DNA of 64,000 nucleotides, from the NCBI RefSeq assembly GCF_014349105.1, contig NZ_JACSJI010000001.1, forward strand, positions 124,001 through 188,000, in the 5' to 3' direction. The position numbers and the translations under genes were made by a program. Numbering within the stretch: the stretch's first letter is position 1; every line of letters begins with the position of its first letter. Below the pieces are notes generated by a model that did no database searches, had not been told where the DNA came from, and was given only the letters and a program-made list of their open reading frames with translations. This document shows positions 1,351 to 56,729 of the stretch, piece after piece. This DNA comes from Caulobacter sp. 17J80-11 (lineage in GTDB: Bacteria; Pseudomonadota; Alphaproteobacteria; Caulobacterales; Caulobacteraceae).

Positions 1351-1475
1351 GAAAACTTCCCCCGACTTGGGGCGACCGTGGCGGCCCGCGGGGGCCGCGT
1401 CAACACGGTTCGCGCGGCGAGCGCGAGGGGCGGGAGACGGCCGGACGCGAACCCTGTTATGAGGGAAGCTCGACC

Positions 1476-1544
1476 AGAGCGCGACAGCCGAAAGTGTAAG
1501 CCGGTTTCGGCGGCCGTCGCGCTCTGAATCCGGGGGAATGAGCC
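1476..1544. repeat. Dispersed palindromic repeat, copy A (69 bp, inverted orientation)
   Basis: The core at 1476-1525 begins AGAGCGCGACAGCCGAAA and ends GGCCGTCGCGCTCT, so its ends are inverted copies of each other. Its reverse complement matches the core of copy B (26021-26069) with only two mismatches and also closely matches copy C (56232-56281). The similarity extends to a GAGCC at 1540-1544, the counterpart of the GGCTC that opens copies B and C. This copy sits in the intergenic space upstream of the ABC ATPase gene. Confidence 0.85.
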
Positions 1545-1594
1545 TCCTGTTTCGAATTCATTCGAAACGAGAAGGCTCGGGGGGTGAAACGGGC

Positions 1595-5135: not shown

Positions 5136-5216
5136 CCTCGTCCTTCGACAAGCTCTGGATGAGGGCGACTGAGCGCGAAGTAGAAATCCTCATCCTGAGC
5201 TTGTCGAAGGACGAGG
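5136..5216. repeat. 29-bp inverted repeat pair (dispersed alphaproteobacterial intergenic type)
   Basis: The left arm at 5136-5164 begins CCTCGTCCTTCGACAAGCTC, and the right arm at 5188-5216 is its reverse complement with a single mismatch. The arms are separated by 23 bases. The CCTTCGACAAGCTCAGGATGA-like word is familiar from intergenic repeats in many alphaproteobacterial genomes. It lies between the convergent coq9 and purK genes and would form a very stable hairpin in RNA from either strand, so it may also end transcription. Confidence 0.85.
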
Positions 5217-25965: not shown

Positions 25966-25978
25966 CCCAAGACGGCCC

Positions 25979-26005
25979 GGAGCCTTCCCGCTTCGGGAAG
26001 GCTCC
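25979..26005 (+). terminator. Terminator-like hairpin after bfr
   Basis: GGAGCCTTCCCG (25979-25990) pairs perfectly with CGGGAAGGCTCC (25994-26005) around a three-base loop, 14 bases after the bfr stop. The following AAATTCC is not a U-tract, so termination may be imperfect. The right arm overlaps the first bases of palindromic repeat copy B. Confidence 0.6.
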
Positions 26006-26069
26006 AAATTCCTGGAGTTGGAGCGCGACGGCCGCCGAAACCGGCGTCCACTTTCGGCTGTCGCGCTCT
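26000..26069. repeat. Dispersed palindromic repeat, copy B (70 bp)
   Basis: The element starts GGCTCCAAATTCCTGGAG and has the 49-bp palindromic core GAGCGCGACGGCCGCCGAAA...TTTCGGCTGTCGCGCTCT at 26021-26069. Copy C matches it along the full 70 bp with few substitutions, and the reverse complement of copy A differs by two bases in the core. It sits between bfr and the TspO-like gene. Confidence 0.88.
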
Positions 26070-26132
26070 ATGGCGTCGCCGGAACCGCCGCCGGAGCAAC
26101 CTGTTTCCTCTCCTCTACGGACGGAGAGTTCC

Positions 26133-26699
26133 ATGTTGCAGGCGGGCCGGGACGCCTTGGCTGATTTCCTCAACAGTCGCGATCGCAGCGCCGGCCACGT
26201 GGCGCTGGGCGTGGTGCTGTGCGTCGGGGCCGTCGCCCTGTCGGCGGCCATCGCCGGCCGCAACGCGCCGACCCCGCGCAATCCCCAGGTGAAGGCCGAC
26301 TACGACGCGCTGGAGAAGCCGGCGATGCAGCCGCCGCGCCAGGTGTTCGGCCTGGTCTGGCCGGCCCTGTTCTCCATGCTGACCTGGTCGGGCCTGCGGA
26401 TCTGGAACGCGCGCGGGCCGGAGCGCGACCGCGCGTTTGCGCTGTGGGCGGCGATCCAGGGCCTGCAGGCGCTGTGGATGGCCTGGGGCCCCCGCCATCG
26501 GCTGGCGCAGTTGCTGACCGCCCTGACCACGCTGGGGGCGACGGCGGCCTATGTGAACGCCGCGCGCAAGGTCGACGGCAAGGCCGCGGCCATGGTCGGG
26601 CCGTATGCGGGGTGGATCAGCTTCGCCAACGTCCTGACCGAAGAGCTGTGGCGCAAGAACCGGCCGGCGCAGACGCCGACCCGTCATACCGTCCATTAG
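26133..26699 (+). CDS. TspO/MBR-family membrane protein
   Basis: TspO proteins are five-helix membrane proteins that bind porphyrins and other ligands. The 188-residue product has the family pattern LEKPAMQPPRQVFGLVWPAL in the first loop and helix. It ends with the helix WISFANVLTEELWRKN, matching the common WxxFAxxLNxxxWxxN ending. The ATG at 26133 (MLQAGRDALADF) follows a GGAGAG site. The N-terminus is about 40 residues longer than in minimal TspO proteins. The TAG stop at 26697-26699 lies inside repeat copy D, so the repeat defines the protein's end. Confidence 0.8.
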   Translation: MLQAGRDALADFLNSRDRSAGHVALGVVLCVGAVALSAAIAGRNAPTPRNPQVKADYDALEKPAMQPPRQVFGLVWPALFSMLTWSGLRIWNARGPERDRAFALWAAIQGLQALWMAWGPRHRLAQLLTALTTLGATAAYVNAARKVDGKAAAMVGPYAGWISFANVLTEELWRKNRPAQTPTRHTVH

Positions 26700-26738
26700 A
26701 GCGCGATAGCCGCCGGTTTCAGCGGCCAATGCGCATCA
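26697..26738. repeat. Dispersed palindromic repeat, copy D (deleted, degenerate)
   Basis: TAGAGCGCGATAGCCG followed by CCGGTTTCAGCGGCC matches the reverse complement of copy C with a 10-bp deletion at the loop. The far arm has decayed (AATGCGCATC in place of ATCGCGCTC). Its first three bases are the stop codon of the TspO-like gene. Confidence 0.7.
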
Positions 26739-37289: not shown

Positions 37290-37460
37290 GCGGGTCTTGC
37301 TGCGGCTCGCGTCGAAGGCTTCACATCCCGGGGACCTTAATCATCCTCGAAGGGAGCTGTCCCTGTTCGGGTCCGTGGACCCGCGCACACGGCGCCCACC
37401 TGGCTATCCAGGTCCGAGGGGATTGAAACTGCCTTCACGGTTCTACGCGGCGCCGCCACC
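37290..37460 (+). ncRNA. ssrS: 6S RNA
   Basis: The stretch between zapA and the 5-formyl-THF cyclo-ligase gene is the conserved location of 6S RNA, which mimics an open promoter and binds RNA polymerase. The sequence has long-range pairing consistent with this. GCGGC/CGCG near 37302-37311 pairs with CGCG/GCCGC at 37446-37456, and GAAGGC-TTCA (37314-37323) pairs with TGAA-GCCTTC (37424-37436). Inner local hairpins include GGGTCC/GGACCC near 37370-37383 and ACCTGG/CCAGGT near 37398-37413. The exact ends are estimates. A covariance search would be needed to confirm the central bulge. Confidence 0.75.
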
Positions 37461-55391: not shown

Positions 55392-56210
55392 ATGTCAGAC
55401 TCAGTGGACTTCAAAGGCCGCGTCCTGATCGTGGCGGGATCGGATTCCGGCGGCGGCGCCGGGATCCAGGCCGACATCAAGGCGGTGACAGCGCTCGGCG
55501 GCTTCGCGGCGACCGCCGTCACCGCCATCACCGTGCAGGACACCCTGGGCGTCCACGGCGTGCACCCCATTCCACTGGAGGTGATCGAGGCCCAGGCGCG
55601 CGTCGTTTTGGACGACATCGGGGCCGACGCGATCAAGACCGGCATGCTGGCCACGGTCGAGGTGGTCGAGCTGGTCGCCCGCCTGCTGGACGGGCCCGCC
55701 CGCGGGGTGCCTGCGGTGATCGATCCGGTGATGATCGCCAAGGGCGGCTCGCCCCTGCTCGAGACTCGGGCGGTGGAGGCGGTGCGCAGCCTGCTGGTCC
55801 CGCGCGCCGGCCTGCTGACCCCCAACGCGCCGGAGGCCGAGGCCCTGACCGGCCTGAGCGTCGCCTCGCTGGACGACCAGCGCCGGGTCGGCGAGCGGCT
55901 GCTGGAGCTGGGCGCCCACGCCGTGCTGATGAAGGGCGGCCATGTGCCGGGCGAGCTGGTGGTCGACGTGCTGGTCACCCCCGCCGGCGAGACCACCTTC
56001 GAGGGCGAGCGGCTGGACACCCGCAACACCCACGGCACCGGCTGCACCCTGGCCTCGGCCTGCGCGGCCGGTCTGGCCCAGGGCCTGCACCTGACCGAGG
56101 CGGTCGCCAACGCCTGGGCCTATACGGCCGAAGCCATCCGCCGCGCGCCGGGCCTGGGCAAGGGCCACGGTCCGCTGGACCACGCCTGGCCGCTGCGCGA
56201 CGCGCGATGA
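55392..56210 (+). CDS. thiD: Hydroxymethylpyrimidine/phosphomethylpyrimidine kinase
   Basis: ThiD phosphorylates HMP twice to supply HMP-PP for ThiE. The 272-residue ribokinase-fold protein has VAGSDSGGGAGIQADIKAV, TAITVQDTLGVHGVHP, AIKTGMLATVEVVE, VIDPVMIAKGGSPLL, LLTPNAPEAEALTG, VLMKGGHVPG and the anion-hole NTHGTGCTLASACAAGL. thiE lies 30 kb away at 24447. Repeat copy C begins two bases after its stop codon. Confidence 0.96.
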   Translation: MSDSVDFKGRVLIVAGSDSGGGAGIQADIKAVTALGGFAATAVTAITVQDTLGVHGVHPIPLEVIEAQARVVLDDIGADAIKTGMLATVEVVELVARLLDGPARGVPAVIDPVMIAKGGSPLLETRAVEAVRSLLVPRAGLLTPNAPEAEALTGLSVASLDDQRRVGERLLELGAHAVLMKGGHVPGELVVDVLVTPAGETTFEGERLDTRNTHGTGCTLASACAAGLAQGLHLTEAVANAWAYTAEAIRRAPGLGKGHGPLDHAWPLRDAR

Positions 56211-56211
56211 A

Positions 56212-56281
56212 GGCTCAAACTTCCTAGAGTTAGAGCGCGATGGCCGCCGAAACCGGCGTCCCCTTCCGGCTATCGCGCTCT
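56212..56281. repeat. Dispersed palindromic repeat, copy C (70 bp)
   Basis: The element starts GGCTCAAACTTCCTAGAG and has the palindromic core AGAGCGCGATGGCCGCCGAA...CCGGCTATCGCGCTCT at 56232-56281. It matches copy B over all 70 bp with few changes. It fills the space between the convergent thiD and GNAT genes, and its final CTCTA supplies the GNAT stop codon (TAG on the minus strand). Confidence 0.88.
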
Positions 56282-56729
56282 AGCGGACGTCCGGCCGGCC
56301 CAGGGCGCGGGCGTAGATCTGCGGGTCCAGCCGCTCCATGCCGCGCTCGGCGTTCGCCGCGGTGAAGCCGAACTGGCGATACAGTTCGTGCGCGTCGCGG
56401 GTGGCCAGCGACCAGCGGCGCAGGCCCTGCAGGTCGGCATGGTCCGCGAGGTAGGCCATCATGCGCTTGCCCACGCCGCGGCCGCGCGCCGGCGCGTCCA
56501 CCCAGACGTCGCACAGCCAGGCGAAGGTCGCCCGATCGGTCACCACCCGGGCGAAGCCCACCATCTCTCCGCCGGTGAAGGCGCCGACGCACAGCGAGTT
56601 CTCGGCCGCGCGGCGGAACACGGCGTAGGGAATGTCCTTGGCCCAGTAGCTCTCGCCGGAGATCCAGCGGAAGGCGCGCGCCAGGTCGATGCGGGCGCGG
56701 TCGTCGGTGAGGATCAACTCGTCGGTCAT
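56280..56729 (-). CDS. GNAT-family N-acetyltransferase
   Basis: The 149-residue product has a GNAT fold. It shows WISGESYWAKDIPYAVFRRA near the start, VGFARVVTDRATFAWLCDVWVDAPARGRGVGKRMMAYLADH (with the acetyl-CoA-binding RGRGVGKRMM) and the late ELYRQFGFTAAN. The substrate is unknown. Its C-terminus (RPDVR) ends exactly at the border of repeat copy C, which provides the TAG. It is divergent from an exported protein gene at 56868. Confidence 0.9.
   Translation of the reverse strand: MTDELILTDDRARIDLARAFRWISGESYWAKDIPYAVFRRAAENSLCVGAFTGGEMVGFARVVTDRATFAWLCDVWVDAPARGRGVGKRMMAYLADHADLQGLRRWSLATRDAHELYRQFGFTAANAERGMERLDPQIYARALGRPDVR

Follow-up and report, generated by a model that had tools for sequence, protein, structure and literature searches.

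The window, a 64,000-nucleotide stretch of one contig of Caulobacter sp. 17J80-11, carries four copies (A to D) of a non-coding palindromic repeat (Table 1). The first-pass annotation of the window had placed all four correctly, and its comparisons between them were also borne out: the core of A, once reverse-complemented, matches B except at two positions, B and C can be aligned at 89% over 74 bp, and the 10 bp missing from D are AAAGTGGACG. The GGCTC that opens B and C and the GAGCC at 1540-1544 in A were found to be the opposite arms of a second hairpin, and the repeat unit is larger than the roughly 70 bp proposed there.

Table 1. Positions of the repeat copies, of their parts and of other features (window positions unless a locus is named).
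Feature	Position	Strand	Evidence or description	Congener (G001)
Copy A, full-length, two hairpins	1475..1581	-	covariance model R1, 87.2 bits; two-hairpin fold z -7.1	same place, L105:1282-1381
Copy A, parts	hairpin 2 1476-1525; linker 1526-1539; hairpin 1 1540-1578
Copy B, full-length, hairpin 1 shortened	25977..26070	+	R1, 83.6 bits; fold z -6.9	common, L124:8320
Copy B, parts	hairpin 1 25980-26004; linker 26005-26020; hairpin 2 26021-26069
Copy C, most of hairpin 1 gone	56210..56282	+	R1, 55.1 bits	common, L117:9253
Copy C, parts	hairpin 1 arm remnant 56210-56216; linker; hairpin 2 56232-56281
Copy D, lone hairpin 2, 10-bp deletion, one decayed arm	26697..26738	-	sequence	missing (L124); gene there ends CAC-TAA
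Other subfamilies, own genome	L142:10426-10529; L132:7624-7727; L144:786-893; L054; L056		stems GAGCGCATTTTC.., GAGCGCGTTCGG..
IS630-family element, Brevundimonas MAG	L170:2624-3677		ends TAGAGCGGGATCA
Different palindromic pair	5136-5216		29-nt arms, 97% complementary, CCTCATCCTGAGCTTGTCGAAGGACGAGG; single pair in window
6S RNA	37294-37457	+

When the flanks of all copies were read, the full element proved to be about 105-118 bp long and to consist of hairpin 1, a short linker and hairpin 2, on the plan TA-[GAGC..hairpin 1..GCTC]-TA-linker-[GAGC..hairpin 2..GCTC]-TA, the whole being bounded by TAGAGC..GCTCTA. Hairpin 1 has arms GAGCC..GGCTC and the letters CTAGAGCCTTCCCG..CATTCGAAACGG....AGAAGGCTCTA; hairpin 2 is the 50-bp core recognized earlier, and the element's right-hand part corresponds to the 70-bp piece. 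A lone-hairpin form also exists. The element is not part of a larger IS; it is short, lacks an open frame and has TA-flanked inverted tips, as is expected of a MITE of the IS630 type. Other subfamilies in the same genome have very different stems with the loop and the plan unchanged.

Pairing within the two hairpins is well conserved. The consensus structure derived from 15 full-length copies has 39 pairs, 16 of them with compensatory changes, while in 15 divergent representatives drawn from several genera both hairpins are kept, with compensatory changes at 24 of 32 pairs. Constant across these representatives are the GAGC..GCTC tips of hairpin 2 and some letters both of the hairpin 1 tip and of the hairpin 2 loop (ACCG, CACTT). 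A typical copy from Caulobacter vibrioides OR37, folded as single-stranded DNA, gave a z of -11. Compensatory changes of this strength favour a conserved structured RNA, or a 3'-end processing or termination element, which is kept for its function and for which mobility is secondary; a weak, sub-threshold antisense match at L274:1613-1730 to the Brucella sRNA family BASRCI27 points the same way. The changes do not prove an RNA role, because the arms of a DNA palindrome can correct each other and so be homogenised without any function as RNA, and copy A has no T-run terminator. No Rfam family for the element was found at the gathering threshold.

The repeat recurs well beyond the four sites, far more often than chance would allow. 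A search with the 70-mer of B (self-match 1.6e-30) returned 26 further places in the same genome (E <= 8e-4), and a covariance model of the 15 full-length copies found about 39 distinct places there at E<=0.01, after antisense double hits had been removed by hand and with E-values that are rough. The expectation of hundreds per genome was therefore too high for this strain, and OR37 has more than 100. Among relatives the copy number jumps from genus to genus: with some antisense double hits included, there were 58 matches in the congener G001, 41 in G018, 20 in G008, 18 in G013, 13 in G006 and none in many others, and amongst the named genomes 136 in OR37 (many near-identical), 41 in a Phenylobacterium MAG and 0-1 in Brevundimonas. 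When the genus-tuned model was run across the class it gave few matches, which is a weak test, since the stems diverge and the filters were stricter. Elements that agree in plan, linker and loop occur on Rhizobium plasmids; plasmids searched with the element of the window's genome (G000) gave no match. Neither did the phage records searched, and carriage by phages was accordingly rejected. Half-element matches at L028 and L030 were judged to be due to chance.

Mobility of the family, as the first-pass annotation had proposed for a dispersed, non-coding and non-autonomous repeat, is evident from orthologous positions. Over the stretches they share, G000 and G001 have about 92.6% identity; copies A, B and C are common to both, and D and several full-length copies are missing from the partner, in both directions. 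Altogether about 10 copies, D included, are missing at the orthologous position in the congener or another Caulobacter, and these empty sites show that copies have been gained or lost between species. Three clean junctions, with several others less clean, fit a single TA at the insertion site that is afterwards present on both sides, although a duplicated terminal TA and one belonging to the element look alike in sequence. In the first, OR37 reads CAC-TA-[GAGCG..GGCTC]-TA-AGGACAAAAGCC and G049 reads CAC-TA-GAGACAGAAGCC; in the second, GCCGC-TA-[GAGCCC..GCTC]-TA-GTCGCC of OR37 corresponds to GCCGT-TA-GTCCTC of G048; and in the third, GCGCGC-TA-GATGC of G000 is the site that a copy occupies in G001. 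Other empty sites between G000 and G001 have TGA/TCA where the occupied copy reads TAG/CTA, which would require either a subsequent change or a less strict target.

The implied target in intact OR37 copies was YTAR in 36 of 37 cases (CTAG 22, CTAA 10 and TTAG 4), the remaining one being CTAT. At both ends the TA is followed, reading into the element, by a G; a stop codon TAG or TAA that takes up the element is therefore left as TAG in the same position, and insertion at TA inside CTAG-like sites means that the element often lands on gene stops and swaps in its own TAG. Copy C illustrates this, its terminal CTA (56280-56282) being the TAG stop of the minus-strand ORF 56280-56729, as does copy D, whose first three bases (26697-26699) supply the TAG stop of a TspO-like ORF ending at 26699. 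A gene ends within 60 bp of 68 element ends, and at 46 of these its stop coincides exactly with the TAG of the element; 42 of 125 copies (5/31 in G000, 17/44 in G001 and 20/50 in OR37) supplied a neighbour's stop on at least one side; genes were called by a simple codon-usage script, which makes these counts approximate, and orthologues among the G000 and G001 copies are not independent observations. In G000 sequence, 22% of the non-coding YTAR sites and 29% of the non-coding CTAG sites belong to stop codons; in Caulobacter sequence the figure for non-coding YTAR/CTAG sites is 16-39%. Set against the roughly 34% of copies concerned, this availability makes a special targeting of stop codons unnecessary.

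Copies lie mostly outside genes, many of them at or near gene 3' ends, as a 3'-end processing or termination element would. The share of copies at stops is, however, close to what the availability of YTAR/CTAG sites provides, some copies lie upstream of genes, and copies often differ between close species, all of which leaves a primary role as RNA or 3'-end signal distinctly unlikely.

The first-pass annotation had considered the family to be REP-like or MITE-like and had suggested looking for a REP-associated tyrosine transposase or an IS with matching ends. Two palindromes per unit, a mostly intergenic location and the lone-hairpin form would suit a REP/BIME-like element that such a tyrosine transposase moves in single-stranded form. 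Y1_Tnp was nevertheless not found in the window's own genome by a search that detected 10 of 14 controls, and in 30 relatives it gave one match only, in a genome with few copies, the element-rich relatives having none. The junctions, too, resemble a TA duplication, within the ambiguity of the terminal TA noted above. Movement by a REP-associated tyrosine transposase was thus rejected for this genome and is barely credible for the family, and only the MITE-like half of the earlier description is retained.

As for an IS with matching ends, the ends were found in relatives and the enzyme was not found at home. When the surroundings of IS630 genes were scanned with TA-flanked inverted repeats as the sole requirement, ends starting with GAGC came up in G010, G017 and G020, and a separate scan of the collected loci for paired TAGAG..CTCTA ends added one Brevundimonas IS, assigned to IS630 by eye from its DDE motifs. 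One end of the latter matches the end of a Rhizobium element at 18 of 20 bases. TA-GAGC tips are thus present on four IS630 elements in total, all from related genomes, and the IS copies themselves also sit in CTAG or TTAG; the part clearly shared by IS and element inside any single genome is the tip TAGAGC only. IS630-family elements are known to insert at TA and to duplicate it (PMC2170065), with a reported preference of IS630 for CTAG (Tenzen and Ohtsubo 1991, as cited in PMC2170065).

The TA-GAGC tips on IS630 elements, the CTAG and TTAG sites and the TA duplication make it probable that the repeat is a non-autonomous, non-coding IS630-type MITE of about 105-118 bp that is mobilised in trans, which is the account that fits best. 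An IS630-type (Tc1/mariner-like DDE) transposase, from an IS that was not detected in the genomes sampled, would most likely recognise the TA-GAGC tips, excise the element and place it in a YTAR site, ideally CTAG, whose TA becomes duplicated. Where the site is a TAG or TAA stop, an in-frame TAG would remain, and such an insertion would hence be harmless and persist, while insertions in coding sequence would presumably be removed by selection.

The main weakness of the IS630 account is the missing autonomous partner, most clearly in OR37, which has many near-identical copies and in which no IS630 transposase was found. DDE_3 (IS630) gave nothing above the cut-off in the element-rich G000, G001, G008, G013, G018 and OR37, nor did the NCBI IS630 model. 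The absence from the window's own genome rests on these two models; since G000 and OR37 are drafts, a collapsed IS could escape, and 20 sampled contig ends show none. A resident IS630 in this genome was rejected on these grounds. Other relatives do carry IS630 elements, as a check of the family confirmed; broken-up IS630 pieces were seen in G006 at L342 (G006:C19:19457-21467), a genome with 13 element matches. The best reading is that the IS630 mobiliser is gone or transient. It also counts against IS630 that it does not need the long hairpins of the element.

The want of an IS630 transposase in the element-rich genomes searched favours another TA-duplicating enzyme, for example an IS5-family transposase of the IS427/IS711 type, and in Brucella IS711 inserts at YTAR with duplication of the TA, preferring the palindromic Bru-RS repeats (PMC2266754). 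The TA-GAGC tips on four IS630 elements speak against such a mobiliser, which is regarded as unlikely.

Among known repeats, the element is placed with the CIR/RIME repeats of alphaproteobacteria, as a new subfamily that behaves like an IS630 MITE. The Caulobacter CcrM-associated intergenic repeats, CIR (Chen and Shapiro 2003, as cited in PMC2229807), are described there as intergenic, about 110 bp long and built of two linker-joined inverted repeats with TA termini, and the present element likewise has two inverted repeats with a linker and exceeds 100 bp. GANTC, the CcrM site, is central in hairpin 1 of most OR37 copies (42/50) but has mostly been lost in the genus of the window (2/23 in G000 and 7/29 in G001), where the stem sequences also differ. 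Strict membership of CIR is not claimed, because this GANTC feature is not shared by the window's own genome. The hairpin-linker-hairpin plan, linker and loop of the Rhizobium plasmid loci suggest a possible relation to RIME (Rhizobium-specific intergenic mosaic elements), although the stems differ. The BASRCI27 sRNA family may itself contain a repeat of the CIR/RIME-like kind.

The Bru-RS of Brucella, intergenic stem-loop repeats of 103-105 bp (PMC2267715), have been linked to TA/YTAR insertion as the target of IS711 (PMC2266754). They are thus similar by description in size, intergenic stem-loops and the tie to TA/YTAR, but their published role is that of an insertion target, not a passenger. 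RUP of Streptococcus pneumoniae and other IS630-type MITEs (PMC2229807) are likewise short and non-coding, with TA termini and ends matching an IS630 element; here, in contrast, the IS with matching ends belongs to related genomes instead of the genome that carries the element, and a long hairpin forms each end. Since genomes with fresh bursts were without IS630 and tyrosine transposases, it can also be proposed, with a small chance of being right, that CIR, RIME and Bru-RS form one old, fast-drifting alphaproteobacterial superfamily moved by a yet unrecognised enzyme, for which the invariant hairpin 2 loop (AACCG..CACTT) would be a second recognition site.

More information on the mechanism of CIR mobility has been called for (PMC2229807), and TA-duplicating empty sites at YTAR together with tips shared with IS630 offer a concrete and testable answer on how repeats of the CIR type move. 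In GC-rich genomes CTAG sites are rare and many of them are stops; because its ends bring a TAG with them, a mobile repeat can occupy these sites and leave genes unbroken. Such copies replace stop codons and alter 3' ends in many genes, and both annotation and any interpretation of these hairpins as regulatory RNAs have to take this into account. In the stretch 1540-1597, hairpin 1 of copy A stops 16 bases short of what is probably the start codon (ATG) of a gene for an ABC-transporter ATPase; this copy, which is kept in the congener, could influence translation of that gene.
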